DNA from: Ptychodera flava
Taxonomy: Eukaryota > Hemichordata > Enteropneusta > Ptychoderidae
Direction: 5' to 3'
Assembly: GCF_041260155.1 (NCBI RefSeq)
Contig: NW_027248372.1
Coordinates: 632,501-696,500, forward strand
Length of the DNA stretch: 64,000 nucleotides
A program made the translations under genes and the position numbers. The notes under the pieces were generated by a model. The model had not been told where the DNA came from. It saw nothing but the letters and a program-made list of their open reading frames with translations, and searched no databases. Below are positions 17,040 to 44,890 of the stretch, piece by piece (position 1 is the stretch's first letter; each line of letters starts with the position of its first letter).

Positions 17040-18043
17040 TATAGAACTTGTGGTTACTGATTTATAGCCATATATGCATATTAGAGGTCATAGGTCATCG
17101 AGGTCACATGACATTTTGCAAAAAGGCTTCCCTGCCACATTTATCCCTGTGAACCAAAAAACAGACATCTACTATTTGCTAGCCAAGAATGAGTTATGCA
17201 CGCAATTAATGAGGTACAGGATGTGCCGTCATAAGGTCTCCCATCATACCAACTATGAAGGGTGTAGCACTTTTGGTTACTCAGTTATAAATATGTATAT
17301 TTGAGGTCAAAGGTCATCGAGGTCACTAAATATTTTGTAAACAAAAATTGTATTCCATACTTATCCTGTTTACCGAAAATCAGTCCTCTATCTTAATTGG
17401 TAAGCCTATGATTAGATATGTGCATGATTAATGAGGTACAGGATGTGCCGTCATAAGGTCTGACATCATACCAAATAGGATGGGTGTAGCACTTTGGTTA
17501 CTGAGCTATATGCATATCTATATATTTGAGGGCAAAGGTCATTGGGGTCATGTGACATTTTGTCAAAAAAATGTATTCCATAGTTATCCCTTTGCACCAA
17601 AAATGAGACCTCTATCTCTATTGGTCAGCCGAGAATTAGATATGCACATAATTAATGAGGTATTGCATATGCCATCATAAGGTCTCCAATCATACCAAAT
17701 ATGAAGGGTGCAGCACTTGTGGTTACTGAGATATGGACATGTATGTATATTTGAGGTCAAAGGTCATCGAGGTCACGTGACGTTTCATAAAAATGTTTGC
17801 TCTGATAGTTATCCCTGTGTATCAAAACTCAGACATATAGCTCTATTAGCAAGCCATGAATTAGATATATGCATAATTAATGAGGTACAGGAGGTAGCTG
17901 GACATGTGACATTTTGTCAAACAGCTTTGTTCCAATATTTACCAATGTATACCAAAAATTAGACCTCTAGTTCCACTTTGAACCTTATTATTTGATATAT
18001 GCATAATTAATTAGGTGCAGTATGTTGCCAAGGTCAAAGGTCA
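17040..18043 (+). repeat. Satellite array 1, ~225 bp units with DR1 sites
   Basis: Four clear units, with AGGTCA-type cores at 17085, 17304, 17529 and 17754, followed by more decayed units with a perfect core at 18031. Each unit contains a GCACTTGTGGTTACTGA-like block, the AGGTCA cluster, GTGACATTTTGTCAAA and an AATTAATGAGGTACA block. The units differ from each other far more than those in the arrays at 29.6 and 42.9 kb, so this copy is older. Confidence 0.85.
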
Positions 18044-18962
18044 GATGGCATCCCCAAAATTTTGGTGTACAATTTGGTCCGTGCTGGGCAATGTTCATTA
18101 GACACCAACCCTCCCGGACTTTTACATAGGTCAGAATAAGCCATTGCCATAGCTCAGCTGCAGATCAGTGTATACGGTGGTTTCAATCGGGCTCAACTCA
18201 CGAGGTCAAAGGTCATTGAAAAGTGTCGAAAATAATACTTTAAAATATTCTCTTAATCGAAATGGCCTGTGAACTTGAAAGTTGGCATTAAGGAGCCTTG
18301 ACCTATTGTCTACATATCTTGTAAACAGAACTTTGATTGATTAATTTGTATGCAAATGAGATTTATTTAAAAGTTTCATTTGAAGATAACTGCTGGGTCA
18401 TGTGAACATTCGGCATGGTAACCAAATAAATAAATACTGTCTTTCGAGTTTTACCTATGTGTAAAATTGCAAGTCATTTGGCGCAATGGTCTTTGGATAG
18501 GAGCCATGGTACACGAAAGTAGGTCGAAGGTCATTCAAGGTCATCCAAAAATTGTCAAAAAATTTTGGTCCCATACTCACCCCAATGAACCAGGAACCAA
18601 ACCTGTTGCCCCTGTAGATCCTGAGATACAATGATTTTGCATAATTAATTAGTTATGGGAAAATATCAATTTAATCAAATAAAATTTTCTTCTCAAAAAC
18701 GGTAAGGTCAATGAACCTGAAATTTGGCATATGACATCTCAATACTATGGCCTACCAAAGTCGTTCACAGCTTTTTGATTGGTCAAGTTTTATGAACATT
18801 AGGCAGAATACAAAATTTGAATCCAAGATGGCAGCCAGATCACATGACCCGCCGTATAGAAAGAGTCATGTGCACTAGTACTCAGTGGGCTTAATAAGCC
18901 CTGAAAGTTTGAAAAAGCTGCGTGCAATGGTTTTGGAGATCTGTGATGGCAAAAAAGTGACG

Positions 18963-19010
18963 GAAGAAGAAGAAGAAGAAGAGGAAGAGGAAGAGGAAGA
19001 GGAAGAAAAG
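18963..19010 (+). repeat. GAA/GGAA microsatellite
   Basis: A purine tract of GAA then GGAA-type repeats just inside the terminal hairpin of the element. The polyglutamate it would encode is an artefact. Confidence 0.9.
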
Positions 19011-19066
19011 TTGAATACCTACGAATACAATAGGGGAGTAAGTCCCGAAGGGGGCTTGGGCCCTAA

Positions 19067-20394
19067 AAACTCAAACTATTACATTTACAATGTTTCTTGT
19101 GCTCTACAATAAGCACGTTGAAAGCAATGCTTGGAAACACAAGTTATACTTGTATTAGTACAACAAGCATACTTATAGTTAGGTGACTGTTAGTCTAAAC
19201 AAAAATTCCATAAACAATGGCAGTAAACACCATACAGTGTGATAGTAATCGACTGGTTGTGTTTCGAAGATAGTTTGTCTCTGACGTAGGTTTATGCACT
19301 AGGTGGTCATAGGCACCAGCAAAATTATTAATTAACATAACAAGATCTAAATTATGAATACAAAGCATATTTGCGACAAATGCAAAAAGATGCAATGTAG
19401 TATTACGAGGATGTTTACGAAGTTTGGAAGAAACAATAATATATTTGAATTATATTTAGAATGATGAAGGTAGACAATACTTAATGAAGGAATAAGAGAA
19501 TTTCCCGTGATGGGTTTTCAACGTATCACGGTGAACTTTGAATATAATTGTGACATGTAAATTTCAGATCAGACCTGCATTGATGTTTACAGTTGGACGT
19601 ATAATTTTATTTTAATTCATATCTATCATATGATCAAAGACATGCCCTAAAGATAACGTTCAAATCCCATTCTAAAATAATACGGGAAAGGTAATACAAA
19701 GTAAGAGAGAAAAAGTACAACAGACAGAGCTGGAGGACAGAGCGACCAAAGAGAAGTCTAAGGCATTTAGACAGAGAAGCGTATCTTGGGCGATGACACC
19801 TGTCAAGCTTTTCAACCTAGAAATAAAGTGTATTACCCACGAACTCTGAACATCGCGTAGTCACTTGAATACTCCCAGTGCCTCTCAGCAAGCCAAGACG
19901 AGTCAATGAGTAAAAGCGACCAAGACGATATAACGAGATAAACAACACGAAAAACCGAATAGTAATAGTTGTTTTTACAACATGTACACAATGAATTTCA
20001 AAATGTTGGGGCAGAACAAAAAGTGTTCGTTCAAAACCTGAAAATTTTGAAATATTAAACTGCAAAAGTTACTGAGTTACAAAGTATGTAATTGTCACTC
20101 AAAAACAAATGGTAAACATCTTGGTAAAACCTGAAACTACTGTCTCTTTCATACAATTACAATTTTTGTAGTGAGAAGAGTGGGTAGCTCAATAATCATA
20201 CAGCCTGGAGTGTAAATCCTCCTTTTTAAGTGTCCTAAGTGTCAAATAATACAAGTCCCGAGCACAGTTCCTGTTGAGTTAAATGCTCCATTAGCTGTAA
20301 CTTTTGGCTATTTATTCTGAATGCTGTGTATCAACTACTTTTTAGCCTACTTCCATTAGCGCTGATCGAGATGTCAGATTTGTTACTAAATATA
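19067..20394. other. No supported gene
   Basis: AT-rich sequence with only short frames. No splice-supported exon or repeat was seen. Confidence 0.45.
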
Positions 20395-20580
20395 GCTGCA
20401 CGCGCGCGACATCGGACACCGCTGCCTGAAATTCGGACAAATTTTTGTTGTTGCATGTGCGGTTGTTGTTGCAGCTTGAATTCGAAGCAATAAATTCATA
20501 TGAATTAGTGTTACTTTTAGTATGCTCTGTAACATTGGCAGAATTTGTTTTCATCGTTCTTGCGGAAAATTCTGACAAGT
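20395..20580 (-). repeat. Dispersed repeat shared with 49550-49700
   Basis: Read on the minus strand this matches the plus strand at about 49550-49700. Both open frames there begin with F-S-A-R followed by similar residues (for example the run ANVT), and both contain an AAATTTGTCCGAAT-like word. This may be a diverged coding-like or mobile fragment. The family is not recognised. Confidence 0.5.
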
Positions 20581-21493
20581 ATTTATTTTAGCACATTAAA
20601 GAAAAATGACGTTCAGTGATCAGCGCTATTGCATACTAAAATATCAAATATTCTGCTTTTCAAGACAGCCAATGCCGAATGGCCATTGCTACTTTTGAAA
20701 ACATAATTCTTATCCGGATTTATAAAATGATAGCACAAAATGTTCCAAGTAAGAGCAATGTCAACTGCGTACGAACTATTTGGAGCATTCAACAACGAAC
20801 ATTTTACTGTACCTGCTTGCCCCGGTCACAGTCCTCTGCCCCGGTGCAGATCCAATATCGTGATCAATCGCGGATCGCGGAAAAGTTTATGGAATTCAGT
20901 TCTGTTCCTTATTTGAAGCCAGACCAGTCAATAACTGTTTTTGATCCGTATTTTATGAAGACAATAAAATTTCACGCCCTTCCGCCGACATTGAACACTT
21001 TAAGGGAGAAATCAACTTTTGAAACGGTCGATCGATCATACGTAAGCTTACACTAGTCCGCTACAATAGGAGGTGCAGATGTACACTTTACGTAAAGCGG
21101 CTGATATACCCTTTTACGATAGCTAGTCTAATATCAATTGTATCGAAACGATCGTATGGCATTTGCGTTTTTGCGACATTTAAGTAAGTGCTGCATATCG
21201 GCACTCTAAATGTGTCATTGCAGACAAAGGAAGGACACAACGCGGCGTATTTTCCAGTAGACGATCTGTGTTTGTTTTTCAGATTTCGTCCAAAAACTGA
21301 ACAGCACGCGGACGGCAAACAAAGAATTATTTTACGGCACCTAATATTATGAAGTGAGAAATTTTTATGCATTCTAAAGTTTAATTTGTGGAATGTGTGA
21401 TCATTTTGTAGATAATTTTATTCAGGGATGTAAAGTAATTCTTTAAGTTTAAGAAGACAGCTAAATGCTTACAGCATTCAAGGAGTTAGGCCC
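20581..21493. other. Unassigned stretch with a 125-residue frame
   Basis: The plus frame 20679-21056 is open for 125 codons and has a protein-like second half, but no clear acceptor or known motif. I treat it as unproven. Confidence 0.3.
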
Positions 21494-21802
21494 TAAAGGA
21501 CAAAGTCGGCCATTTTTTTATGAATTTTGTTTGATAGGAGATACTATTTATATTCTTTGGCATGTTGAAAGATACTGAATAAATGGGTGACCATGCATAT
21601 ATTCGACCCCGGTGTTAGTCAAATTAAATGAAACCATCTCGAAAATGAATTAATGGTCATGACCAATAATTCATTTTCGCGATGGTTTCATGTATCATGT
21701 CTAAAACCGGGGTCGAATATATGCATGGTCACCCATTCATTCAGTATCTTTCAACATGTCAAAACAAAATTCATGGAAAAATGGCCGACTTTGTCCCTTA
21801 AT
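21494..21802. mobile_element. Foldback MITE, ~310 bp near-perfect palindrome
   Basis: The two arms (21494-21645 and about 21655-21802) are inverted copies. Landmarks are GGACAAAGTCGGCC at the outer left and GGCCGACTTTGTCCC at the outer right, with GGGTGACCATGCATATATTC and its complement inside. The centre is ATGGTCATGACCAAT. Ends read CTAAAGG and, in reverse, TTAAGGG. There is no coding capacity. High arm similarity implies recent origin or continuing arm conversion. Confidence 0.85.
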
Positions 21803-23363
21803 CTAAAAAGAAATCGATTTGCAACAAAACTGATGATAACTATGATCACAGTCCCTCCACCAACAGGATGGATGGAGGACGGATGGACTGTGCTATCATA
21901 AAAAGGCGAGAATAGCATCATACGTACAAAACAATCTTTACGGTCTCAAATTTTCGGAGTCTCTGCCTTTACCAGGGTCTATGCAACCACTCAGATATAA
22001 AGTAGACAGGGCCATTACTTAGACAGCTTCCATTACAGTTGGCCATGGCTTGCTAGTGTTAGCTATGAATAGTTAAACCTCGCTTTACTTTGATTAAATG
22101 AACACTTCGTCGTACCGTGGCCCAGTTAGCTGGATTGTGTTTGAACACTAACACTCGAGGTCTATGTCTGCAGTGAGGGATTACGATTTTAAAACCATGA
22201 AAAACATTTTGTGTTACTTTGTTACACCAGTAACAACTGCGTGAAGATATTCCGTCCTGTTATTAAGTTAATGACACAAGACGCCTTTTTTGTGAGTCAT
22301 AGGCATGTGATTCCATGTATAGATTTTGAAGGTCTGACAGCTTGGTGTGGTGCCAAATTTACCAAATAGGGTGATGTTTTGGTAGTGCTGTGGTAGTCAT
22401 ACATATCTTTCCCTTATTTGGAGTGATTGTGCAATGCCCATCGACCTTTTGCGAGCATGAGAATAGACATTGAACAAAGGGGTTTTTGTTTTCAATGGAC
22501 AGTGAAGTCAGAGCAACATGTTATCGACTGACAGTTTGTCGGGATTAATTCGTTCCTTGTAACGTGTCAAAGCTTTTATTTGCCCGAATAACTACGCTTT
22601 GCACATAAAATTGTCGACAACATTTTGTTTCTTTTTAATATAGGGAAGAGGAGTTCCCTTATGTGTGTGCATTTTTTAAAGAAAAACTTCCACTTACCAA
22701 AATTACTCCCTTTTATCGAGATTTCTTTTTGGTCTGCAAAAATAGCATATTCTATTAGATGTTGACTCGGGAATCGCGGAACCTATTCTTACAGACAACT
22801 GTCTATTTCTATTAGCCGAAGTTTGCCGTGGTAAACAAAGGGGTAACATCATATAGAAAGTCAATGCCAACAAGGACCTGCACAGAAATTGATGTCGATT
22901 CAACATTTCTGTACTAGAATAAAACAATAAAGACTTAAGACTTGTTCCCCATGTACAGAGATAACATATATAGAAATTTGAAACCCAATTGCTGATATTC
23001 CTCATTGCCAAGTACGTCGTATTAACACCGCTCGTGCTCCTACCTGGTATTTTCTATCGAAGTAAGAAACTAGTGAACGTAGCGAATGTGAGCCTTTTTT
23101 CCCTGCGAATACAATTTTTTGTTACAACTATGCCTGATCGATAGATTACGCTTACTGATATATCATAATCAGAGTCCGCTCGTACCGGCGATCTTTAATG
23201 ATTAACGCTAATTCTTTAGGGTGGTAGATGCTTTATGGATAACAAATTGTCTTGACATCAGAATAAACGTCAATATGTTACAACATAGCATAGATGTGTT
23301 TCTGAAATAAATGCATGACCATCATCACAAAATTGCAAACCTCTCCTCTGTATTTGATTCTAG
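21803..23363. other. No supported gene
   Basis: Possibly intronic or upstream sequence of the gene to the right. A minus-strand donor-like site near 22695 follows a frame that is already closed. Nothing else was seen. Confidence 0.4.
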
Positions 23364-23471
23364 AGACCTGATGTGCTGTCCTTGGACAAGGAAGACATGG
23401 AAAGTAAAATGCTGGCAACAATGTCTGAATTCTTAGGACTTACGCAAAACATTGGCGAGCACAACAACAAG
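23364..23471 (+). CDS. Strong candidate internal coding exon (36 codons, unrecognised)
   Basis: A pyrimidine-rich acceptor (CTCTCCTCTGTATTTGATTCTAG) precedes an exon that starts AGA CCT and ends AAC AAG before a GTAATT donor. It is open in phase 0 at both ends and is exactly 108 bases. The translation begins RPDVLSLDKEDMESKMLATM and ends GEHNNK: hydrophilic, charged and probably helical. No family is recognised. Phase matching would allow it to join the exon at 25303, skipping 24875-25021, but not to continue through 24875-25021, where its frame meets a stop after 20 codons. It could be an upstream exon of a longer isoform or part of another gene. Confidence 0.5.
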
Positions 23472-24339
23472 GTAATTACTAGTGATAATTTGTCCAGTAA
23501 TTGGGTTGGATAAAGCATTACGAATGTTGTATTCAATAGACGTTGTAGCAAATGTATATTCTATCTAGGTTTTAATTTTTTGACGATGAAAGCAATAGTT
23601 GCAAAAATTAAACATTCTCAAACCTGGTAGACTTGCCAGCGATGTTGAAGGAGGAAATACGACAACCACATCTTTGACAATCACATTGAATACTCGATAA
23701 TGCTGCAAATGCGAATGTGATCCCTGTATATCGTCTCGATGAATATTTCTAAAATTCTTTGACATTTATTGGTTGTTCAGGATACGTGAAGAATGAAAAA
23801 GATAATAATGAGTTCCACGTGACAGCCAATTTTAAGCATTGTAACTCCTACGATTTGAAGAATGGCTTTTTAAATTTGAAGTTTCTTCATATTTAAATGC
23901 TACTGAGCAAAGCCACATAATAAGTTTAAGGTGAAACTCATTGAACATCCAAATATCAAATTTTGAACGAGCGCTTGTCATTATCTACAGTCTGTGTGCA
24001 AAACCTCGTATGTAACTCCTTCAATGTCTTTCAATTGAAGGACGTGCGACAGATTGTTTTTAAATCGGCGCTTGGACTGCAAGACTGGTGTCATGCGTTG
24101 ATATAAATGTTTGACTATAAGAAAGCCTATTTATAGGCTGTTTGACAGTTCGACCGGATCCGGATATGATGTTAACTATAGATCGTCCTGACATACGGGG
24201 TATTAGGACGTCAACTGTGCCTGTCCGCCATGTTGAATTTCCGAATGGCCGTTCTCGTTCAGATTTTACTTGTTTATTAACGATTTCTAAAATGAACAAA
24301 ACAAAACCTGATTCTTAATTAGCTGTTTAAAACGTTTAA

Positions 24340-24433
24340 ATTTCTGGCTACGACTCTATCATTCGGAATTTTTTTTAAATTTAATTCTGTACTGACAACG
24401 ATCGAAAACCGCGGATCAGACAGAAAATCGCAG
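24340..24433 (+). promoter_or_regulatory. Candidate non-coding first exon of the MGNC gene
   Basis: A consensus donor (ATCGCAG|GTAAGCAC) ends a stretch with no useful ATG at 24433. The next acceptor, 441 bases later at 24874 (TTTTTCGCAG), is eight bases in front of a start codon. This fits a 5' untranslated exon and a small first intron. The transcription start is not defined. The exon start given here is a guess. Confidence 0.4.
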
Positions 24434-24882
24434 GTAAGCACAGCATCTCGATCAGTTTGAAAGACACTGAAATCGAATACTTCGGGATTAAAATTAAAAG
24501 TTGGCAATCGAAGAGAAGGATATTAGGGACCGATCAGCGGACGTTTAAGTATATTTGAAGAGTGTAGTTCAGTGGTGACATCTTTTATTTTCTAAACCTG
24601 GACTTAAAATGGGTTACTGTGTGTAGTTAGTGTCATGCGTTTTATGTGAACGAAAAAGACTTAGAATCGAACATATATTATTTTAAATTCTCATCAATAT
24701 TATCGATTAAATATATACCGTCAATTTGTAAATTCATTTTTGAATTATATTACTTTTCTGTTCGGAAAAAGATGCCCAAAAACAAATCACCTTGCGTTCT
24801 GATTTTTCCATTCGTTTTACATTTATTTTAATTGTTATAAACAACCTTGACCTAGTTTACTCTCTTTTTCGCAGCTGCCAAC

Positions 24883-26837: not shown

Positions 26838-26843
26838 AATAAA
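26838..26843 (+). terminator. AATAAA polyadenylation signal candidate
   Basis: The first canonical AATAAA I see after the TAG at 26560, followed about 45 bases later by a GT-rich patch (TGTGTTGCAGTGG). It implies a 3' untranslated region of about 300 bases. Confidence 0.4.
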
Positions 26844-26862
26844 TATGACTTTGACCATGACT

Positions 26863-28680: not shown

Positions 28681-29090
28681 AATTTTTTCTTTCATACATT
28701 TTTGTGAGTAATATTAAGACTTCAATGTTCTAAGTTTGATTTTGTCTTAGATTGCAACATCACATGAAGACAGGAAATCTGGGAAATCTTGAAAGGCAAC
28801 TACTCTTGATTTGATACACCTTGACTGTGTATAGATGAATGACTGACCAAAGAATTTGCAGGAACTCTTCAACTGTTTTGGGAGAGTTATGTAGAGGTAA
28901 ATACCTTCTTGAGTGCCAACAGTATTTCATCAGACCATGTGGGTTTGGTTTTAAAATTCAACAGAACTTTGAAAACCACTCACTACTGTAAATATTGTCT
29001 GTAAAGGTCGGTGAGAAGAGTTCTTACTCATGAGTCTGAAATATTCTCAAAGAATCTCCAGAATAGATGACACAGTTGTCAAGAAAGAAA
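28681..29090. other. No supported gene
   Basis: AT-rich flank between the SINE and the satellite element. No feature was seen. Confidence 0.45.
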
Positions 29091-29332
29091 AATAGCGTCA
29101 ATGACACTGTAGCTCCCATCCTGGACTATTTAGTGTTTGTTCTCTGGTCAGATATTTGAACATGTGTGAAAGGGATAAAGTGCATGAAGTGAAAATACTT
29201 AAATGAAATGTACTGGAGACAGTGAAATATGTTTAATGTAATTATTCAGAATATAAAATGGGAAAAAAAAAGAATTAGATATATCGAATACTGTGATACA
29301 ACCATTAACTCAACAAGTCATTTACAATGACA

Positions 29333-30930
29333 TAGTCCCCACTTGTAATAGGAGTATTAGTCTTGATGGGGCAGGGAAATGTGGTCATTAAGAAGTATCA
29401 CTGGAGTGTATATGTTGAGATCTATGGGCACATAGGTCTATGTCGTTGTTCCCAATTTGAAACACATGAGGCATGTCTAAGTTATGGTTCTAAATCGGGA
29501 AAAAAGATCAGACCTCTAGCAGTATTGGCCAGCCAAGAAATACATATGCGCATTATAAATGAGGTACAAGATGTGACATCTTAAGGTCTAATATCCTATC
29601 AAAATTGGAGGGTATAGAACTTGTCGTTACTGAGATATGCATATATATGTATAATCAAGGTCAAAGGTCATCGAGGTCACATGACATTTTGAAAAAAAAA
29701 TTATATTGCTAATTAATCCCTATATGCCAAAAAATCAGATCTCTAGCTCTATTCGCTTGCCCAGAATTAGATGTGTACATAATTAATGAGGTAAAGCGTG
29801 TGTTGTCATAAGGTCTCCCATCCTACTAAATACAAAGGACATAGCACTTGTGGTTACTTATTTATTGACATAAACATATATTTTAGGTCAAAGGTCACTC
29901 GAGGTCACGTGACATTTTGTCAAAAAAATTGTTTTGCTAAGTTATCCCTATATACCAAAAATCAGACCTCTAGCTCTATTGGCTCGCTCAAAATTAGATA
30001 TGTGCATAATTAATGAGGTACAATATGTGGCGTCATAAGCTGTCCCATCATACCATACATGAAGGGTGTAGCACTTGTGGTTACTGAGTTATGGACAAAT
30101 ATGTATATTTGAGGTCAAAGGTCACCGAGGTCATGTGACATTTTGTCAAAAAAATTGTATTGCTAAGTTATCCCTATATACCAAAAATCAGACCTCTAGC
30201 TGTATTGGCTCGCTCAAAATTAGATATGCGCATAATTAATGAGGTACAATATGTGGCGTCATAAGGTGTCCCATCATACCATACATGAAGGCTGTAGCAC
30301 TTGTGGTTACTGAGTTATGGACAAATATGTATATTTGAGGTCAAAGGTCACCGAGGTCACGTGACATTTTGTCAAAAAAATTGTTTTGCTAAGTTATCCC
30401 TATATACCAAAAATCAGACCTCTAGCTCTATTGGCTCGCTCAAAATTAGATATGCACATAATTAATGAGGTACAATATGTGGCGTCATAAGGTGTCCCAT
30501 CACACCATACATGAAGGCTGTAGCACTTGTGGTTACTGAGTTATGGACAAATATGTATATTTGAGGTCAAAGGTCACCGAGGTCACGTGACATTTTGTCA
30601 AAAAAATTGTTTTGCTATGTTATCCCTATATACCAAAAATCAGACCTCTAGCTCTATTGGCTCGCTCAAAATTAGATATGTGCATAATTAATGAGGTACA
30701 ATATGTGGCGTCATAAGCTGTCCCATCGTACCATATATGAAGGGTGGTAGCACTTGTGGTTACTGAGTTATGGACAAATATGTATATTTGAGATCAAAGG
30801 TCATCAAGGTCACATGACATTTTGTCAAAATATCCGAGATATCTGCGTGAACGGATGGACTCACGGATGGACGAACAGACGGACATGACCCAATCTATAA
30901 GCTCACTGGACTTCATCCGTGGGGACTAAA
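29333..30930 (+). mobile_element. Inner satellite-bearing element, copy 1
   Basis: Bounded by TAGTCCCCAC (29333-29342) and its inverse GTGGGGACTA (30919-30928), followed by AA, so the end again reads CTAA. Inside are one decayed and six clear satellite units, then a GGATGGAC-type short repeat region (30850-30885). The plan is the same as for the outer element, but the end sequences differ, which implies one related element inserted into another before the pair was copied. Confidence 0.6.
29640..30815 (+). repeat. Satellite array 2, six ~226 bp units with DR1 sites
   Basis: AGGTCA cores lie at 29658, 29885, 30112, 30338, 30564 and 30791, a spacing of 226-227 bp. The first five are perfect AGGTCA-A-AGGTCA, and the last has AGATCA as its first half-site. 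The inner units are nearly identical to each other and the outer ones more diverged, as expected when arrays turn over by unequal exchange. Confidence 0.9.
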
Positions 30931-31477
30931 ATTGTGTCACTGCATCCTTTTTGCAATATGAATACGATGAGAAACTAAATTTTTATTTTTCGTGGCCTTA
31001 TACATGGGAGTCTATGGAGATCTGCCTTATACATGGGAGTCTATGGACGTGTAAACTAAAAATATGCAAATTTCACCACGATTTGCCCAAATTTGGGAAA
31101 GGTCACTCCTATGCACTTCCATACCAAGTTTCAAATCAATCGGACTTGTGGTTTCAGAGCAGGAGATTTTTTGACCAAAAATGGGAGAAAATTACAAAAA
31201 AATTCATGAAAAATAGCAAGTCCAAGATACTGACCCAAGATGTGCACAATCATTTCATGTCAGCCCAAAGTACTTACATGCTAATTTTTCATGTAATCTG
31301 CTCAGTGGTTTTTGAGTTTTTTCAATTTTGACTGTTTTTACATTTTTTCACTTAATTTGCATATTTTTGGCAATGACAACTTCATTTGAACAAAATCTCA
31401 TCTACAGCCCATCATCCATGTACACACCAAATATCAAGATGAAATGTACAGCGGTTTTGGAGTTTTTGATGTTGACG

Positions 31478-31557
31478 GACAGACATACAGACATACAGAC
31501 ATACAGACATACAGACACACAGACATACAGACATACAGACATACATACATACAGACA
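31478..31557 (+). repeat. CAGACATA short tandem repeat
   Basis: About nine 8-bp units with two variant units. The second copy of the element has only about three units (45440-45470), so the tract is variable. Confidence 0.9.
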
Positions 31558-31617
31558 TTTCCCTAGCCTATAAGAATAGCTTCCATTGCCATATATACAT
31601 ATGGCTATGGGAGCTAA

Positions 31618-34600
31618 AAAAGGATTGTACATCAATGAAAACCACGTTTGTGGTGTGCCATGTAGTTTATTGGTATATTTCTGAAAAAGAATGTGTATAC
31701 AAGTAAATCAATGAGCAGTTGTATTATTCATTTTTTCCTGAAATAATAATGTATTTCAAAAAACATGTCAGTGAGACATTAAAATGCCTTATCTATCAAT
31801 AATATGATTAGACTGATTGCAATTGCATGTGTTCCCATGGCACCAAACCCTCCCGAATCGATCTAGCCATTACCAAGAAAATTATTCCTTAATTCAGACA
31901 AACAAACTGTTTTACTATATTTCTTATACATAATATTTCTTGAGCCAGGGATATCTTCAAGTTAGCTTACTTTGATGTTTGCTGCTGTGAAGTGGCTATT
32001 TCTTGTCACACACACACACACACCACACACACACTCCACTACAATTTTACCAACGTTTAGTTCATCTATTACCAACGGCAGGGTAGGTAGAATGGGCCTC
32101 GGGGACTAATATTCAAACTTGCAAACTTTTACAATTCTTTTCTGATCTACCACTTGTAGGAGCTCATTTAAAACATTTTGGTGTAAGAAAAATTAACCAC
32201 CCAAGTTTTAAGAAAATCGAAAATTGCAGTATTCCCCATTGGAGTTAACTCATGGATGGCAGCCATTTTGAACTTCAACTGCTGTAAAATGTCAGGCAAT
32301 TTGTTTCTCTAAGTACCAAACTTTGCATGATGAACCCCGATTTTCATTCTTGATTTGGTAAGAGTGTGGTTGAAAGTTTAATTGAGGAAAGGTGAAACAA
32401 AAATTGTAAGTCTTTCACTTTCAAGGCACATACTGCCTTAAAATACTATTAAAATCTGAAAATCCTTTGAAAATGCTGACACTTAGCAGCTAATTTAATC
32501 TGCAGGATCTGTAAAATTGTTTGTAGTACTGACATGCAATCATAATCAATAATATGCAGATTGACTATAATTTTATTAAAAGTACATATACAGGAGTCTG
32601 TATTGTTCTTGGCAAATATAAGTCTGTAACTTGCCAGCTTCTCTCCACACAGTTCATTAGCGACAGTTAACTGTCAAGTTCTGTCGTCAGTCCTTTCCTT
32701 TGAAACAAACACAACTTCACTGACTTGATCTTTTATCCTCCTTAAAGTAGATCCTGGAAGACTGGTTGGGAAAAACTGATTCCAAATCTGTTGGTTGAAC
32801 AGTACCATAGTATCCCAGAACATGTAGGTTCTGAATAAGTAAAACCTGCATTCCAAGCAAATAAAACCATTGTCAGGATATCATACAGAAAGAAACATGT
32901 CTTGTCTGTACTTTTATTGCAGTGAATGCTTGTGTATGTGTTAAGACTGATACTTTTTTTGATGTTGGTTGGTTTGTTTGTTTTCTTAAGAGGGGGAAGG
33001 AGAGTGTGACCCATGTGTTTGAATGAAGTCTACATTAACAGTGCCCATTACATAGTCAAGAATCCACACACACTTTACAGGACATGTTTATCAACAGGCC
33101 ATCATTATTCCTTGGTATGGTAACAGGTGTGTTAAGATACAACTTTCACTGGACCTGTAATATTTTGTAAAATTTCAGAGCTTGATCTTGATATTGTTGG
33201 TAGATCGAACAGTGTTGAATTTCACACCTGGGCTATAGTGTTGCATGGTCTGAATATTTATAAGATTTTTGAAATTTCTGACATACAAAGGCACGACTAA
33301 TCTGTTGTCTCAGTGTACACATTAGAAATACTCAATATGCAAACAATTCAGACACTGTAATATGCCTGTGTGCTTAGCACACCTATATCGTAATACATGA
33401 ACTAATACGACCATACAACTCTATGGATCCAGCATTGTCAAGTTTGCGCACTTGGTTAGGTCAGTGTAGCATAGTCTCCCTCCCCAACTGTTCAAGGGAG
33501 TGCTCCACACCTAGAAACACTACGATTGTGTGTGAAGATATGCATTATCCAGTCCACTTTGGTAATCAAGAATAGTAGTGGAAAGTAACTATCTAAGACC
33601 ATTGTCAGACTGCACTTTCCATGGTATTAGATAAGAATTAGTTTCACTCTTTTATAGATCAAGATGAAGAATTTTTCAAGTGTACAGGTTATATAGCATT
33701 GTGAGAACTAGCTAGGATGTGGGACCCATGCAGCCCAGCCTCAAGCTGTATGTCACAAACCTGTGCATGTGGAAATGCAGGTCTGTACTCAGGAAATGTG
33801 CTCAGATTTCTGACTATACACAAAGGCATGACCAGGTGTGGAACCTATTTTAAATATTCAATACATGTACCTCTCACGGTTCTATATGAAACATCATTTG
33901 CAAGTTTGTGCATTGTATCAGCCCTAGTACACATTATTTCCGAGAATGTCACATTTCCAAAATATTATAAATTTGCAGACACTTTCACAGGTCCTGCAGT
34001 GGAAATTGATAGAGTTATAAAAATCACAGATCTTGTTTTATGTAACAATTAATGGTTGCATCCTGAATCTTATCAAAATTCTCTGTAACTGTGGGTGTCA
34101 AAGATGTACAGTGTACATGTATGTTCTGTATTGACCAGGTACTGATCAGATATCAGGGCCTGTCATATGTAGCCATAATCCTCCTGTTGATTAATTACCA
34201 ATTATTGTTTCCTTTTGATTGCTATCAGTTCTATGATGGCCAAACTGTGCATTAATTTAGCTAACTTTGGTCTGGATTTCTGATTTCGTGACTATGATGA
34301 GTGAGCAAGCATGTCTAAAATGATCTGTTGCCTTCACCTTTTCCAGATCATCACACCAGTCGTTTTGTCTACATGACAACATACAGTGTATATGACATAA
34401 CAATAGATTCAGAAACATGCATACACATATATGCTACACATGTTTCTGCGACACAATATCCACAACTTATTACTGTCTGCTTTAATGCAATCAGAGAGCA
34501 TGCTGTGAGGGTTGCCTGTCATCAAAATGGTAACAATACCACGCATACATTGTATTGCACAGCACAGATGAGCTTGGCCTAGAAGTTGGGATTTGGCTGT

Positions 34601-36290
34601 TTACACCCATCTGAAAAGTGCAAAACATTCTTTTGGTGATAAAGATGCCATTATCTAGGAAAGGGAAAGCAGATGGTTTGAGGATAAAGGAAGCTGTTTA
34701 GGCAAAACACGTGACCCCTTATATTTCTACTGGTACAGGGGAGGAGGCCTACAAAACAACCTGGCAGGACTATAGTTCAACATGAGGAGATCCCTGGGAG
34801 GTTCAACTCAACTTTGACATTTGCCTTCACAGGTCAATGAACTTTTGCCACCAGATGACCAGTTGGCTGATGGTGCATTTGAGAATGGATATGATAAACA
34901 TTGCCACTCAATTACTGTACTTTACAAGTCGGTAGAGCTCTAGATATAACATTTTTACTAAGAGATAAGAAATCAGAACAACAGACTTGTAAGCTAATAT
35001 TTTAAAGTGTTACGTTAACACCATGTTGTTGAATGAATTTTACGCAAGGCGTTGGCTGTCATGTTGAATATTAGGAGTAATTTTCATTCAATTTTGCCTG
35101 TATACAATAATCTTGCTTAATAAATGAACCTGATCCATAAACTGTGATTTTTTATGGATTAATTTATCACAAGTAAGAGTGCTCATCCGAATTTCGACAA
35201 TTGTTAAAAGTTTGAGTAAGAATGTCCACAAAGTTGCTGATGAAGATAATCTTCTGCCCTAAAATGAAAATACAAGTGAAAAAGTAATGGTGGTAACTTA
35301 AGTAAATAAGATGAAAAATGGACAGTGCATACATTCCACATGTAGTTGACATCTGACCACGGCAGGAACATGTAAAATATAAATGCCTTAAGTGTAACCC
35401 TCATGAGCAGTTAATATGTGCATGTTTGTAACACACCACAGGCTAACATAGTTTATGTTATTGTTTTGTGCTTTGATATATATGTACTACAACAATGAAT
35501 GATGGTTACTTGGTGATTTCTCCACAGCGGCGGTACAGTAGTACCATATGTTCTATTCACCCACCATTGTTTCAAAGCTGTAGAACATACACATGTACAG
35601 TCATGTGACCAGGGCACTAAACATTTCTAAAATTACCCTTTGATTTCACTTTTGTTGATTCACTGGGGACTAGACATCTATTTTCTCAACCCTTGACGTA
35701 TTCTGGTGAATCGTAACATGGAATTGAGCATATGTGGCACGTTATAACAGAGTCATATCAGTATGATGAAGTCAAGTCTACAGTATAATTGGACACTACA
35801 ATATACACATTTATCACGGACAAGCAAAGTGCTGGTGGAATGTGCCCCAGCTGTACTTTCCTTGGTTTACAATGTATTTCCATACCAATACTTTCACTCA
35901 TTCATTGTGTATACAATTGCATTGAAACAATTTACCATACACAGTTTTTTTAATTTCTCTCCACAGACCCGTTTATTAACACAAGGATCAGTCTTACCAG
36001 AAACACATCACTACTGTATGTGTTATTAGAAACACATTGCTATGCCCTTCAGCCAAAGCCAACGACCCTTCACGCTAATAAAATAGTGATAGCCCTCATG
36101 ATCAGGCTAGGTGTTTATTATGTACATTATTTGTTGTGTCTATGTATGTGTTATACAGAAATCAGCTACATATTCAGGCTACATAATTACATGTACACAT
36201 GTACATTTTATCTTTCCTTTCATGTTTGACTTAGTTAGAGTCTCCTATTGGAATGGGAAACAGTTTAAATGTCTGGCATGCTGACTGCAT
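31618..36290. other. Long stretch without a supported gene
   Basis: AT-rich, low in repeats. There is a CA microsatellite at 32006-32036. Frames of 84-111 codons (for example 33717-34052 plus) show no motif or splice support. It may be intronic or intergenic. Confidence 0.4.
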
Positions 36291-37092
36291 GTCAGACATC
36301 CTAGTAACCATAATCCACTCTGCGATATAGACTCCAACTTAAACAGTATACGTAAACGTAATTTTCAAGTAGACAGCATGTCGGGCATCTGCCACCATCT
36401 CGCATTGTTATACTCCATGAAAGACAGACAATATTATTGTTTTTGATATAAGCAATAAACAACACCCAGTGACGGTATACCACAAGATTTTGACTGGTCA
36501 AAACCGAGCAGCATATACTGTTGCTTGTGTGTGTTTTAAATGCTTTTACATAAAAACAGAATTTGAAATCTTGTCCAGGAATGTCAAAAAAGGATTTTGA
36601 CTGTAGCTGAAAACTTGCGCGTGTGCCAGCTGTGGTATATCAGGAATAAATACTAACGTTGTTTTCATGTCTCGACTCAATAAGATCACTGTATTTGCAC
36701 CATCAATATACTCATATGATGTAATATCAGATAAAATAGCAATGGCATCCGCTAGCACTTTCCTTGCAATGCTAGACTCTAGGCTACCTTGCAAGAAAGA
36801 GCAACGATATGCCATGAGATTTTGACCAGTTCAAGATATATATATGCATATTGGCGATAGAGAGTGCATATATGGAGTGAACTGGTCAAAACTGAATCGT
36901 ATGCAGCCATCACTGGGTGGGAGTTTTTGCTACTATTTTATAACAGTATATTGAAATTCTGGTATGGAACATCAATTAAGGATTTTGCCGAGAGCTCACT
37001 CGTGTACCAACCATGCTACATCACAAATATACCACGGTTCTTTTCACGTCTCAACCAATCAGATTGCTGTATTTGCGCCATCAATATACTCC
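36291..37092. repeat. Degenerate inverted and direct repeats
   Basis: TTTTGACTGGTCAAAA (36488-36503) is a perfect inverted word. TTTGACCAGTTCA (36821) and TGAACTGGTCAAA (36878) form a 13-bp inverted pair. A stretch of about 75 bp ending CACTGTATTTGCACCATCAATATA near 36710 recurs in direct orientation near 37085. These look like ends of old inverted-repeat elements inserted into each other. They are not resolved further. Confidence 0.5.
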
Positions 37093-38361
37093 AATGTTTT
37101 TGCTAAGGTTGGGGAATATTGGTAAATGATTGGGAACCCTGGGAACATTTCTACTGTGCCTAATCTGATTGTATTGATATATCAAGGGAAACCCTTACGA
37201 AAAGATCAAAATTTGCCACAAGTTTGCATTCCTTATTTGTTACAAACTTGATACAAATTCTGACATCCAAACAAGCACCAATCTTGCTAGTCAGTTATAT
37301 ACACTTTGATTCAAAAATAGGCTAAGTTTGCAGCAAGTATGTGTGGAGAGTGTGATGAACATTGCACCAAGTTTGTACAGAGAATGTAGAGGTCATTTTG
37401 TTTTTTGTTTGTGTGAGTGTGCACCAAGCTTGTAGATGTGAGGGGGGGGGGATTTGATATCTGGGGCGTGGTATCTGTTGCCTTAGCAACAGCAGACATA
37501 CTGTTGCCCTGGTAACATTTCAGGGGATTTAGATGATTGTAATTCCTGACAGCGTCTTTTTCAAAGTAATGCTCACACAACATGTGGTACATGACATCAT
37601 CGTGCTGCTACTCCCAATTGTATTGTATACAATGATTCTTTTTAATATAAATGTACACTCTTTAGATATGTTTACCATGTGAGCAGCAGATTCTAAATTC
37701 ACCTTCAAGTCATGTATCCAGATGCTAGGTTGAACATCTATGAAAAAGTTGAGAGGATATTACTACATCCAACACGCACTCACCCTACAACACATTCAAC
37801 TAGCTGTAAAAAGGAAAAAACTTCTCAGACAATAAATTTTGTTAACTAAAAAACACAATATATTACTGTAGAATAAAACAGTATCTCTTCTATAATAAAC
37901 ATACAATCTTTGTACTTTATACATAAAATGAGCTGTAAAATATATTCTTTTTGGCATATATGTACATTACACTATATTTCAAAACATTCCCTGACCATGG
38001 AATTTAGATTGAAAAATGGTAAATTCTGTCTCTTTGAAGAAGATACTACAGATCACAATTTTTTTAAATGTGTACCAAAAACTGAATGGTGAAAAAATAT
38101 TATGTTAAAGTCTCATAGATAGTTAACTATGAAAAACTTATTCAAAAAATTTTGTAATTTTTGTGACATATACTTTTGTTGACGAATAAAATTCACTTTA
38201 AACATTTCAAAATACCTTTCCGATGGAATGTACATGGAAAACATGAGAGTTTTAACTTAATGTTGTATTATTACATGTTCAAATCAAAACGCAAAATCAT
38301 GGAAAAAAATGTCCATAGCTACAAAAAATAAAAACTTCATGGAGTATGTGATGACCTTGAC

Positions 38362-39400
38362 TTAACAGTGATATTTGAACAGACACTTAGTGCTCAGTCC
38401 AACTTCAAAAAGCAAACAACTAAACACAACCAAATTCCCATAAAATTCTACATCACTTGGATGATAGATTACTTCTGCCGAGTCCAAAAATATTTCTTCC
38501 ACCGTAGGTACCGACAACTGTGACGAAAATAACTCTGCCATGTCCGATTTGTCCGCAGCAAAGCATGCAGTGGAAGTTTCTATCATAAGTACCAATGCAA
38601 TGATCGATACGGACAGTCTCACTTCTTGTCATCATGATGTTCTCAAAGAACAGTGGTTGGTTGAAATAGTCCTCTGTGGCATGGAAAGTGTAAAACTCAA
38701 AGCAGCAAACTCTTGCTTGAAACCTCACTGAAAACCCGCGGAATTGTCCAAGGCCATTTGAGTGTATAACGGACATCCATGATCCACTGTCACTGAATGT
38801 GTTTAACTTACATGAACTCTCGGTGTCGAACGCAGGCATTGTCCTTCAAACAACAAATCTCTTCTTTGTTCCCTTAATCGTCCGATGACAGAAATAATCC
38901 ACAATTTCTCCCCAAACGGCGGGTAAAAACGTTGTAAATTTGACAGCTGAAGCAATGCATGACTTGCTATGGTATTGGAGTTCAAATGCTGGTGTTGGCA
39001 AAATGAGCCAATCAAGTGTCTCTCTTCACGACATGTGATCTTGTAAGGTCGAAGTTCAAATACATAATTATAATCTGTGTGACCTGTGACCTCGATGCTC
39101 TCATTTGTCTGAAACATCAGTTTCTCGAGAAATGGGAGAGTATATTACTTTTTGACCAACTTTTATGCACTTGAAATCAATCATTTGAAGACATTTGGTG
39201 TCAGCTGGGATCCATGGTCTTTGGACATGTGTAATAATGCAAGTACGATCATGATTTATAGCCTGGCAATGACTTTTCCCTGCTCTGAGCATACTGGTAT
39301 GACAGTGTGAATGTGTTTTGGCGGACACATGACAGGTACTTTCAGTGGTTACGACTTGTAAACTGAACAAAAAAGTCTTTAACTGGAATTCGAGTACCAT
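38362..39400 (-). other. Coding-like minus-strand region inside the foldback, unidentified
   Basis: Several overlapping minus-strand open frames of 86-128 codons cover this kilobase with protein-like, cysteine-containing composition (for example HTDYNYVFELRPYKITCREE). One frame, starting at 38622, opens with a signal-peptide-like run (MRLSVSIIALVLMIETSTAC). I could not assign a family. It may be a broken cargo gene or the decayed gene of the element. The frames are not joined here. Confidence 0.35.
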
Positions 39401-39517
39401 TTTTGGATCCTAATCATTTAAAATATGTCCAAGGAAATTGTTTGAAAAAATGGCAGATGAACTAAGATTTAGTTGACTTTTTATGTTTTTCATTCATGAT
39501 GTTGCAATGGTTTAATC

Positions 39518-39539
39518 ATGGAGGTAGCTACCTCCATGG
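39518..39539. repeat. 22-bp perfect palindrome
   Basis: Centred on GGAGGTAGCTACCTCC and flanked by CAT and ATG. The same core with the same right flank occurs at 48947, where it holds the insertion site of another element. Confidence 0.85.
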
Positions 39540-40002
39540 TTTGATAAATTTGTGCATTCTACGCGTAACCTAATTCATATGTGTTTAACGACCGAGAGTA
39601 TTTAAAAATTTTTTGAATAAAAGAGAATTAATTTGTCATTTTGTACAATGAACACAGGGTACGTAGTTCGATCATTGTTTCAATTCTGTGACAAAACAGT
39701 GCCACGTGGGACAGCTAAAAAAATCTGAAGTTCGTACCAAACTTGATATGTATTTCACATATATCTACAAGCTTGGTACAAACTTCACAACTACCATGGT
39801 GAAAATCCCATAGTGTGTACCAAACTAGTACAAACTTGGTGCATATTTCACATGTTCAATTAAAGTGTGTATCAAATTTGTAACATATATGTACTAATAT
39901 GTAGCAAGTTTTGATCTTTCGTACGGGACGGCCTCAACCCCAGTGAAATGACTTGGGAACCCCAGTAACATTTACCGGGCTTCCAGCCTTAACAAAAACA
40001 CT

Positions 40003-40124
40003 GTGCTTGTATAATATAATAGCACACATTTACTGCTGATATTGCAGTATCCTTCGTGTAAGTGATCATTGTCTCTGTTAGTACATTAAATATAATTATG
40101 ATTGCTGACTGTTTTTACTCTCTG

Positions 40125-40170
<46 letters not shown>

Positions 40171-42360
40171 TCATATGTACTACCAGTAGTGTCTACCGTA
40201 CCTATACACATACATACTGTATAATGACACATGCATACATTCAGGATATAAACGGTGTGTGCAGGTATGCAAGCATATATACTGTGTATATATACTTACC
40301 ATAGAGTATATATACTATAGGCAGTATATATACTGTGTGTGTAAGTATGCAAGTGTAAATGGATGTTTGAAATATCAATGTGTCTGTATGTATAAATTTT
40401 CAGCATGCAACATTACTTACAGGGTGCTGTGAATATACCGGTATATGGGACTTTTCCTGGAAATGTTAACAGAAGTTTAATTACCACTTTCTTTTTATCT
40501 TATGTCCTGATGAAAGAATACACATGATTAGTTTTTAATTCAACTGCCTCTGCATGTGGTCTTGCACATATGCATATTGGAAAATTTGATGGATTGCGCA
40601 AACAAAAACCCAAATTCACACATTGTGACCGTGTGACATTATGCCTTCTTTTGCATGATTCATACACTATAATACATGTGAAATATTTTCATACACCAGT
40701 GCACTGGATACATACGTGTAACGAATTATATTTGAGGCTATCATACCACCTATTTCAATACCATTGCACATTAATCGTTAATATGGACATGAATATGTCT
40801 TTCAGCATGCACACTTTCAGAATTCACATTCTCTCCGCTATGTCTGTACATACATGTAGTTATGTAGTTAAAGGCTGGTTACTTTCACTTTCACTTCAGT
40901 CAATACCTTGCAACACCTAATGTGTACAATTGAAGGTTTTCAGAAGTAAAAAGCCTATCCTCTTCAAATTATGATCTGACAAAGGGGGTTTCTCTGGTTC
41001 GTGTTGATTGTGCATTTTGGCACTGAATTTCAAACTTCATATTGAATTAGAAACTCATTTTAATATTTCCTTAGAATGTTTCACCTTGCTTTGTTGAATA
41101 CATGTACAGCTTTGTACCAAGGTACATTGTAATTACACAAGTATAACTTGTTGAGGTACAATTTTTGTATAATGGTCATATCTGACAAAATAATCCATTC
41201 ACAAATTGTTTCTCGATCTGTGCAAGTACCTGAGTGACAATTATCAGCAGGTCAGTATTAGCTAAACAAGTCAGAGACGAAGTGAAAGACAGAACTTAAT
41301 GTAGAAATTTGTCCAGAACTCATAGCTACATTATATAAATAGAAATCTTGGCAAATGTCCAAATCTTTTACTACAAACCTTATAGTAAGTTTTTCATCCA
41401 TTTCTTTGTTTGTCCTTTGCCTTGCCGTGATCCTTTAATAAATCAAAGAATAAGATTTAGATAACTCCAGCCCTATTATTGCAATATTTATTTGGGTTTA
41501 CCATTAGTGAACCGTTTATCCTTGTACATGCAGAAATTACAACTAGAATGACAATTATATAAGACTACAAAATGCAAGTGAAAGGCTTTAACCCCATATA
41601 AACGATCTTCATATCAATTCATGTTCAATTTAGTATGTCTGCTGAACAGGAAAGGTTTTCCTGTAAAGCAGAATCATAGCATTTTTCAAATGTAAATGGT
41701 TTAAGTTAAGGGGCAGGACTTCAACAATGACCAACAGAAACAACCATCTCTCTAATGTGATTATTGGCACATGTAATATTACTCCACTTTGGGACAAAAC
41801 CTGTGTATAATGGTATGCATATCTGACTCTGAATGACCTTGTCAACAAATTATTAGACAGAAAGCAAGAACTGATTGATTTTGATTAATTTTTAGATGCA
41901 TCACAACTGTTTTTAGAAATTCAATTAATGTGTCATGATTCTCAGAGATTTTGATGTTGAATTTTATCATTGATGTTATCATTTCCTAAATTCACGACAA
42001 GGTATGCAACATACATGTACATCGAAAGTAGTACCTCACCACCCCCTATAGAAAGGCCACCTCCATATAGTGATCACTTGTGTGACCACTATACATAGAT
42101 TTGAGTAGATTTTTGTTTTCTGTAAGTCGATGGCAAACTTTCATCCACTCCCTCCAACATGCAGCTAATTGACACAATATACAATAAGTAAGTGCATTGT
42201 TATTGTTGACATATGAATTGTAATCCAGACTACAATTCACTTGTCAACAATATCAGTACAGTGTATAAGGTTGAGGCTATAGTGACAAACTAAAAGACTC
42301 TGTATTTCACATGTGATTCAACGCTTTGGGCGCAAAACTATTTTTTGTTCCTTCTATGAA
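40003..42360. other. No supported gene; CA microsatellite
   Basis: CA repeat at 40126-40169, then sequence rich in TATATACT and TACATGTA words. The plus frame 40570-40920 (116 codons) has no motif or splice support. Confidence 0.4.
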
Positions 42361-42601
42361 AATAGCGTCAATGACACTGTAGCTCCCATCCTGGACTATT
42401 TAGTGTTTGTTCTCTGGTCAGATATTTGAACATGTGTGAAAGGGATAAAGTGCATGAAGTGAAAATACTTAAATGAAATGTACTGGAGACAGTGAAATAT
42501 GTTTAATGTAATTATTCAGAATATAAAATGAAAAAATACCGAATTAGATATATCGAATACTGTGATACAACCATTAACTCAACAAGTCATTTACAATGAC
42601 A

Positions 42602-44890
42602 TAGTCCCCACTTGTAATAGGAGTATTAGTCTTGATGGGGCAGGAAAATGTGGTCATTAGAAGTATCACTGGAGTGTATATGTTGAGATCTATGGGCAAC
42701 ATAGGTCTATGTCGTTGTTCCCAATTTGAAACACATGAGGCATGTCTAAGTTATGGTTCTAAATCTGGAAAAAAGATCAGACCTCTAGCAGTATTGGCCA
42801 GCCAAGAAATACATATGCGCATTATAAATGAGGTACAAGATGTGACATCTTAAGGTCTAATATCCTATCAAATTGGAGGGTATAGAACTTGTGGTTACTG
42901 AAATATGCATGTATATGTATAATCAAGGTCAAAGGTCATCGAGGTCACATGACATTTTGAAAAAAAAAATTATATTGCTAATTAATCCCTATATGCCAAA
43001 AATCAGATCTCTAGCTCTATTCGCTTGCCCAGAATTAGATGTGTACATAATTAATGAGGTAAAGCGTGTGTTGTCATAAGGTCTCTCCCATCCTACTAAA
43101 TACAAAGGACATAGCACTTGTGGTTACTTTTTATTGACATAAACATATATTTTAGGTAAAAGGTCATCGAGGTCACATGACATTTGGTCAAAAATTTCTC
43201 TCCTATAGTTATCCCTATATACCAAAAATCAGACATCCAGCTCTATTGGCTCGCTCAGAATGAGATATGCGCATAATTATTGAGGTACAGTATGTGGCGT
43301 CATAAGGTGTCCAATCATACCAAACATGAAGGGTGTAGCACTTGTGGTTACCGAGTTATGGAAAATATGTATATTTGAGGTCAAAGGTCACCGAGGTCAC
43401 GTGACATTTTGTCAAAAAAATTGTTTTGCTAAGTTATCCCTATATACCAAAAATCAGACCTCTAGCTCTATTGGCTCGCTCAAAATTAGATATGTGCATA
43501 ATTAATGAGGTACAATATGTGGCGTCATAAGCTGTCCAATCATACCATACATGAAGGCTGTAGCACTTGTGGTTACTGAGTTATGGACAAATATGTATAT
43601 TTGAGGTCAAAGGTCACCGAGGTCACGTGACATTTTGTCAAAAAAATTGTATTGCTAAGTTATCCCTATATACCAAAAATCAGACCTCTAGCTCTATTGG
43701 CTCGCTCAAATTAAATATGCGCATAATTAATGAGGTACAATATGTGGCGTCATAAGGTGTCCCATCATACCATACATGAAGGCTGTAGCACTTGTGGTTA
43801 CTGAGTTATGGACAAATATGTATATTTGAGGTCAAAGGTCACCGAGGTCACGTGACATTTTGTCAAAAAAATTGTATTGCTAAGTTATCCCTATATACCA
43901 AAAATCAGACCTCTAGCTCTATTGGCTCGCTCAAAATTAGATATGCACATAAGTAATGAGGTACAATATGTGGCGTCATAAGGTGTCCCAGCAAACCATA
44001 CATGAAGGCTGTAGCACTTGTGGTTACTGAGTTATGGACAAATATGTATATTTGAGGTCAAAGGTCACCGAGGTCAAAGGTCACCGTTGATCACGTGACA
44101 TTTTGTCAAAAAAATTGTTTTGCTAAGTTATCCCTATATACCAAAAATCAGACCTCTAGCTCTATTGGCTCGCTCAAAATTAGATATGCGCATAATTAAT
44201 GAGGTACAATATGTGGCGTCATAAGGTGTCCCATCATACCATACATGAAGGCTGTAGCACTTGTGGTTACTGAGTTATGGACAAATATGTATATTTGAGG
44301 TCAAAGGTCACTGAGGTCACGTGACATTTTGTCAAAAAAATTGTTTTGCTAAGTTATCCCTATATACCAAAAATCAGACCTCTAGCTCTATTGGCTCGCT
44401 CAAAATTAGATATGTGCATAAGTAATGAGGTACAATATGTGGCGTCATAAGGTGTCCCATCATACCATACATGAAGGCTGTAGCACTTGTGGTTACTGAG
44501 TTATGGACAAATATGTATATTTGAGGTCAAAGGTCACCGAGGTCACGTGACATTTTGTCAAAAAAATTGTTTTGCTAAGTTATCTCTATATACCAAAAAT
44601 CAGACCTCTAGCCCTATTGGCTCGCTCAAAATTAGATATGCACATAATTAATGAGGTACAATATGTGGCGTCATAAGCTGTCCCATCATACCATATATGA
44701 AGGGTGGTAGCACTTGTGGTTACTGAGTTATGGACAAATATGTATATTTGAGATCAAAGGTCATCAAGGTCACATGACATTTTGTCAAAATATCCGAGAT
44801 ATCTGTGTGAACGGATGGACTCACGGATGGACGAACAGACGGACATGACCCAATCTATAAGCTCACTGGACTTCATCCGTGGGGACTAAA
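42602..44890 (+). mobile_element. Inner satellite-bearing element, copy 2
   Basis: TAGTCCCCAC at 42602-42611 and GTGGGGACTA at 44879-44888 delimit it, as in copy 1. Nesting is identical in both copies, so the inner element was already in place when the outer one moved. Confidence 0.6.
42910..44780 (+). repeat. Satellite array 3, nine ~226 bp units with DR1 sites
   Basis: AGGTCA cores lie at 42926, 43154, 43378, 43604, 43829, 44055, 44298, 44524 and 44751. The unit at 44055 has an internal 16-17 bp duplication that adds a second complete DR1 at 44071, which explains the longer step to 44298. The first units and the last unit match the corresponding first and last units of array 2, while the extra units are in the middle. 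Confidence 0.9.

Follow-up and report, generated by a model that had tools for sequence, protein, structure and literature searches.

The stretch of Ptychodera flava DNA analysed here (contig NW_027248372.1, positions 632,501 to 696,500; 64,000 nucleotides, hereafter the window) holds three tandem arrays, 16993-17892, 29503-30830 and 42772-44790, each with a period of ~226 bp. Most array units carry two AGGTCA half-sites in direct repeat with a one-base spacer (DR1; AGGTCANAGGTCA, AGGTCA-N-AGGTCA), a third AGGTCA and an E-box palindrome. The second and third arrays lie inside E1 and E2, two copies of what is likely a Helentron-type mobile element, and the first, array A, is older. The features are listed in Table 1.

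Table 1. Mobile element copies, satellite arrays and their parts in the window.
Feature	Position	Strand	Remarks
Array A (older)	16992..18028		4 units and a shortened piece (17900-18028); roughly 70-85% like young units
Segment after array A	18030..19055		DR1 at 18031 and 18203; diverged unit relative; GAA microsatellite; end-like ...GGGCCCTAAAAA
E1, mobile element copy, 2530 bp	29089..31618	- (orientation if read as Helentron)	6 alignable units, the last truncated
E1 short palindrome AGTGTC-ATT-GACGCT before T run	29094..29108	-	other end of the element; same in E2
E1 partner subterminal inverted repeat	29110..29119	+	exact inverted match
Diverged unit remnant at array edge	E1 29407..29555; E2 42723-42824		DR1 lost; profile E 1.9e-10 and 1e-9
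E1 satellite array, 226-bp units	29503..30830		5 perfect DR1
E1 ACAGACAT microsatellite beside terminal hairpin	31479..31558		repeat unit as read on the plus strand
E1 terminal hairpin enclosing the subterminal inverted repeat	31577..31616	-	DNA fold -11.8 kcal/mol, z -3.99; 0/200 shuffles as good
E1 subterminal inverted repeat TAGCTCCCAT	31607..31616	-	2 bases from element end; exact 10-bp inverted match to 29110-29119
E2, mobile element copy, 3173 bp	42359..45531	-	9 alignable units, the last truncated
E2 partner subterminal inverted repeat	42380..42389	+	exact inverted match
E2 satellite array, 226-bp units	42772..44790		8 perfect DR1, one via a 16-bp duplication
E2 ACAGACAT microsatellite	45440..45471		repeat unit as read on the plus strand
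E2 terminal hairpin	45490..45529	-	DNA fold -11.8 kcal/mol, z -3.65; 0/200 shuffles as good
E2 subterminal inverted repeat	45520..45529	-	exact inverted match to 42380-42389

Anatomy of the element copies

E1 and E2 are 98.1% identical over 473 columns at the left end (29089-29560, a stretch that takes in the first 58 array bases). Identity is 93.2% over the 822 columns that run from position 30800, within the last unit, as far as the right end, and the flanks of the two copies are unrelated to each other. Outside the array they share 414 bp on its left (29089-29502) and, on its right, about 788 bp (30831-31618). On the window strand both begin AAAATAGCG and finish GGGAGCTAAA. Read on the minus strand, each opens with TTTAGCTCCCAT, the final ten bases of which form a subterminal inverted repeat (subTIR), and closes with ...CGCTATTTT. 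The order of parts in this direction is the TTTAGCTCCCAT end with its hairpin, the microsatellite, ~650 bp, the array, ~380 bp, a second inverted repeat (ATGGGAGCTA), a palindrome and a T run.

These parts were compared with those of HINE elements, in which subTIRs of ~11-15 bp lie near both ends. In E1 and E2 the repeat is exact over 10 bp, and by eye it reaches 11/12 with one mismatch. An inverted repeat complementary to the 5' subTIR, the 'IR' of DINE-1/HINE, was found in both copies as a terminal hairpin that folds better than all its shuffles, and both copies have a microsatellite and central tandem repeats. At the other end, the short palindrome has a 6-bp stem and is positioned near the 3' terminus in both copies; 51/200 (E1) and 49/200 (E2) shuffles fold as well. 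Its entry, a stem before a T run, was taken from a bacterial promoter scan, the rest of which is not meaningful for animal DNA. No target site duplication was evident by eye at either copy. By eye, the DNA beside E1 is rich in T on the element strand, and that beside E2 is not clearly TT or T-rich. Collectively, the two near-identical copies, their unrelated flanks, matching ends, subTIRs, terminal hairpin, microsatellite and differing unit numbers mark E as a mobile element, and its sequence features make membership of the HINE group likely.

A second end-like stretch was observed inside E just after the array (30855-30930 in E1, from about 44815 in E2), parallel to the true end. It has a GGAC-rich microsatellite, CTATAAG, a hairpin that by eye is decayed, and GGGGACTAAAA, and its fold is no better than shuffles (57/200). 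Two elements may have combined to form E, or E may have acquired a new end.

The segment next to array A, on its right, contains a diverged unit relative at 18520-18611 (profile E 2.7e-7), and its DR1 at 18031 and 18203 match the unit profile by motif alone (E 2.1 and 0.38). We infer that this segment and array A form one element.

Satellite units and their DR1 sites

A pattern scan of the window detected 18 perfect DR1 on the plus strand (5 at 17-18.2 kb, 5 at 29.6-30.6 kb and 8 at 42.9-44.5 kb) and one on the minus strand, compared to 0 in 100 dinucleotide shuffles. DR1 is recognised by factors of the HNF4, RXR and COUP classes, and GTCACGTGAC by the USF and MITF classes. Using a unit profile, 19 units were aligned over the AGGTCA block. 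A perfect DR1 was present in 15/19, the third AGGTCA exactly three bases on in 17/19, and both together in 14/19. The strict palindrome GTCAC[AG]TGAC occurred in 15/19 units, or 17/19 when its reverse complement GTCATGTGAC was counted, and the CAYRTG core in 18/19. The variants CACATG and CATGTG are the expected CpG decay products of CACGTG; unit 17208 lost the palindrome by another route. The four units with a broken DR1 are u30690 and u44650, which share an identical change, u43053 and u17430. The DR1 at 18031 and 18203 fall outside the alignable units, and that at 44071 is the second half of the local 16-bp duplication. Since the units descend from one another, the 18 sites do not represent 18 independent events, and they are mostly a single ancestral site that was copied repeatedly.

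The first-pass annotation of this DNA had reported 18 perfect DR1 cores, and we recovered that number at the places it named. It had also placed a DR1 and a palindrome in every unit, which is accurate for most units but not for all of them. Three tandem arrays are present, as it described, but they amount to only two array lineages because two of them, at 29.6 and 42.9 kb, belong to copies of one element. Its proposal that a mobile element spreads the sites agrees with the location of these two arrays; array A would belong to an older relative.

Conservation of the AGGTCA block

To score conservation, mean pair identity was calculated in 226 circular windows over seven unit lineages: u16986, u17208, u17430 and u17654 of array A, the older E unit types u29558 and u43053, and a consensus of 9 young units. 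The set excluded u42827 (a copy of u29558), u29785 (a hybrid), the truncated u30690 and u44650, and partial remnants. One explanation for a conserved block is that the DR1 and third half-site are selected as a nuclear-receptor site of the HNF4, RXR or COUP type, for example for transcription of the element or for open chromatin in the germ line, with the arrays as putative receptor platforms. This would be compatible with the HINE identity of E1 and E2.

In favour of selection, the 22-bp block at columns 100-121 ranked first of the 226 windows, with an identity of 0.922 compared to a mean of 0.756 and to 0.853 for the best non-overlapping window. When CpG-linked columns were left out, 5/226 windows were as good, with starts at 100 and 107-110, and all of them overlap the block. 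Invariant columns made up 16/22 of the block and 93/226 overall (P 0.0017, for columns that are not independent and a block chosen by eye from the same window). Within array A (4 units), 5/226 windows were as good. The far relative at 18520-18611 retains the block at 20/22 positions compared to 41/70 others (Fisher P 0.0036, insertion column excluded) or, counting the insertion column, at 19/22 compared to 42/70 (P 0.018), in a local alignment that begins at the block and so favours it. Receptor binding to a mobile repeat has a precedent in Alu, to which HNF4 binds by array, chromatin immunoprecipitation and reporter assays (PMC3252374).

Other results speak against selection. The 13-bp DR1 scored 0.934, but one other block, at column 61 around GCACTTGTGGTTAC, was slightly better kept at 0.938, and three windows overlapping the DR1 equalled its score; GCACTTGTGGTTAC and ATCAGACCTCTA are the other conserved blocks of the unit against which columns 100-121 can be compared. 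Smaller subsets gave weaker results, with 18/226 windows as good in units 17208, 17430 and 17654 alone and 13/226 in the three E lineages. The remnant at 29407-29555 retains only 14/22 positions of the block compared to 79/112 others and has lost the DR1 in both E copies, and the DR1 is broken in 4/19 units, two of them via one shared change. Seven lineages are also few. On balance we consider selection for receptor binding unlikely, although it deserves more weight than the other alternatives below.

The first-pass annotation had proposed comparing the AGGTCA cluster with the rest of the unit. Among the units of the window, the cluster came out first at 22 bp but second at 13 bp, and the remnant had lost it. 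The 10-bp palindrome is ordinary, with 59/226 windows as good. In these few lineages most of the unit is less well kept than the block, a pattern that selection, local exchange or chance could each produce and that does not prove a binding role.

Apparent exchange within the arrays

The first units of E1 and E2 are 98.7% identical and the last units 99.3%. In E1 the second unit (29785) is a hybrid: it joins parts of two E2-type units, and the switch falls between columns 113 and 123, in the AGGTCA block. Up to column 113 it is like the second unit of E2, except at columns 74, 75 and 104, and from column 123 it is like the young units. An additional base stands immediately before column 113. 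The three-unit difference between E1 and E2 apparently arose by exchange within the block. The 16-bp duplication at 44054-44086 also falls in the block, as do two places, near 17899 and 18030, where array A has shortened joins, the match at 18030 being by motif alone (E 2.1). Of the other five breakpoints, two belong to the E array (its end at column 144 and a fuzzy left edge) and three to array A (its left edge at column 7 and two leaving points near column 20). Thus 4/9 breakpoints are in the block, within 27/226 columns (P 0.016, a post hoc count from a small list). This suggests that the block may be a DNA-level exchange point within the array, and such exchange would rival selection as the reason for its conservation.

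Sites outside the elements and database searches

With E1, E2 and array A masked, the remaining 57,252 bases were compared with 100 shuffles. They contain 3 DR1 (18031, 18203 and 39080), 2 DR4 and 1 DR7 of AGGTCA, where the shuffle means were 0.00 to 0.01. Single AGGTCA half-sites numbered 43 compared to 25.6 (standard deviation 5.3; largest shuffle 45). The looser half-site RGKTCA was not enriched (119 compared to 117.2), and with it the DR1 were still 3 compared to 0.09. The recurrence of DR1 outside the alignable units is a further point for selection. The sites at 18031 and 18203 likely share old descent with the units because they lie in the segment following array A, which holds the far relative.

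The region 39046-39092, outside the alignable units, has a minus-strand DR1 (39080-39092, AGGTCACAGGTCA) 21 bases after a plus-strand DR1-like AGGTCGAAGTTCA. Perfect GTCACGTGAC palindromes are found at 56335 and 56762, 427 bases apart, outside the arrays and with no adjoining AGGTCA. The window further contains a diverged tandem array with a period of about 134-142 bp (62020-62736), an open frame that by eye resembles the end of a reverse transcriptase of a long interspersed nuclear element, with no Pfam match (54750-55025), and direct and inverted repeats of 66-172 bp clustered around a TA microsatellite (8271-9863).

None of the 20/133 open frames (at least 70 residues) that were submitted to Pfam matched any family above the cut-off, a Helentron Rep/helicase included, and one exon-like open frame had no match among solved structures. 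The window gave 0 matches to RNA families at the gathering score and 0 tRNAs. Pattern scans of viral_contigs and genome_contigs for relatives found nothing. A looser pattern returned two stretches in viral_contigs, by eye one region on opposite strands; these are pattern matches only. In an IMG/VR viral contig, a span of 160 bases among closely packed open frames includes three DR1 cores. Nuclear receptors are not expected there, so these cores caution against reasoning from motifs only. In IMG/VR contig L001, many AGGTCA repeats lie between open frames at 5917-6110; they are perhaps iterons or operators.

Origin of the arrays

Together, these results suggest that a non-autonomous element of rolling-circle type (Helentron, HINE/Pearl-like), with a central array of the 226-bp unit, gave rise recently to the copies E1 and E2, and that array A belongs to an older relative of them. 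We assign this explanation as a whole a probability of roughly 0.7. The element would be moved in trans by a Helentron protein, which was not found among the open frames submitted, and the AGGTCA triplet and CACGTG palindrome would be multiplied along with the unit, with the block acting as a possible exchange point for the array within the element. Receptor binding may occur, yet it would not be needed to account for the data.

Several observations weigh against this explanation. The window holds only two copies and yielded no Helentron protein match among the open frames submitted, the insertion site of E2 is not clearly TT, and the folding energy of the second palindrome does not stand out from that of its shuffles. 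The breakpoint list is small and was compiled by ourselves. Copying of alignable units does not account for the three perfect DR1 that remain when the elements and array A are masked (0 in each of 100 shuffles), and the first rank of the 22-bp block is explained at least as well by selection.

A Helentron-type element could also keep the triple AGGTCA and CACGTG both as an exchange point and as a putative platform for nuclear receptors and E-box factors. We regard this dual role as improbable from the sequence data at hand. If it were true, each insertion would bring in a tandem series of receptor sites (5 and 8 perfect DR1 in the two copies here), and their number would shift by recombination at that very site.

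It is similarly improbable that E is a mobile element of another superfamily, such as a miniature inverted-repeat transposable element (MITE) or a foldback element, with HINE-like ends. Pearl elements were initially called MITEs (PMC7492417), and an autonomous partner of E is unseen in the window; however, E has no target site duplication by eye, its inverted repeats are subterminal and 10 bp long, and one of its ends has a hairpin and a microsatellite. A classical satellite family seeding three places independently of mobile elements would explain the head-to-tail arrangement and regular period, but it is contradicted for two of the three arrays by the shared sequence before and after the array and the same ends of E1 and E2, and is very improbable.

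If receptors do bind the arrays, the dense site clusters, whose number varies per copy, would offer a natural test of the effect of site number on nearby genes and on free receptor. If they do not, the arrays would be a warning that satellite growth alone multiplies perfect receptor sites.

Comparison with known systems

Cg_HINE of oyster has the same order of parts as E, with microsatellites of 3 to 8 bases, several of them GTCY, GTCC or GTCK, and satellite-like arrays (PMC7492417). The Cg_HINE/Pearl elements of bivalves share with E a 5' subTIR with a complementary inverted repeat, a GTC-type microsatellite, a central array, a second subTIR with what in E may be the corresponding palindrome, and, as far as seen by eye, no evident target duplication. 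In contrast to the ~160-bp units of Pearl (PMC7492417), the E unit is 226 bp, and ~650 and ~380 bp flank its array. DINE-1/HINE elements likewise have a subTIR, IR, microsatellite and central repeats, and a 3' palindrome to which the short palindrome of E may correspond, but their sequence differs from that of E and receptor-type half-sites are unmentioned in the available text (PMC4067079).

The repeat unit also has counterparts among mollusc satellites. DTC84, phBglII400 and BIV160/Cg170 resemble it in having conserved motifs and palindromes, some at or near array junctions (PMC5139131). Junctions are reported to lie within a palindrome in phBglII400 and near one in DTC84, but not generally so in other satellites (PMC5139131). 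Unlike the E unit, these repeats have no receptor-type motif in the account available, and the term 'transcription factor' appears 0 times in its main text (PMC5139131).

With the terms used, the open-licence literature searched showed no HINE-like element whose tandem array holds 5 or 8 perfect DR1, and no report combining Helentron/HINE elements with nuclear-receptor sites. The individual components have precedents. Alu repeats multiply HNF4 sites, for which the idea of a 'sink' is discussed (PMC3252374), and carry DR2 sites (PMC1785376); they are, like E, mobile elements that multiply receptor-type sites (PMC3252374, PMC1785376). Alu repeats are primate short interspersed nuclear elements with HNF4 binding shown by experiment, whereas E is probably of Helentron type and has its putative sites in tandem arrays. 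DINE-1-like elements are reported to supply binding sites for the male specific lethal complex in D. miranda and, in Cyp genes, putative sites for transcription factors (PMC4067079). Mobile elements that multiply receptor sites, protein-binding sites of Helentron-type elements and tandem arrays within such elements are each already known.

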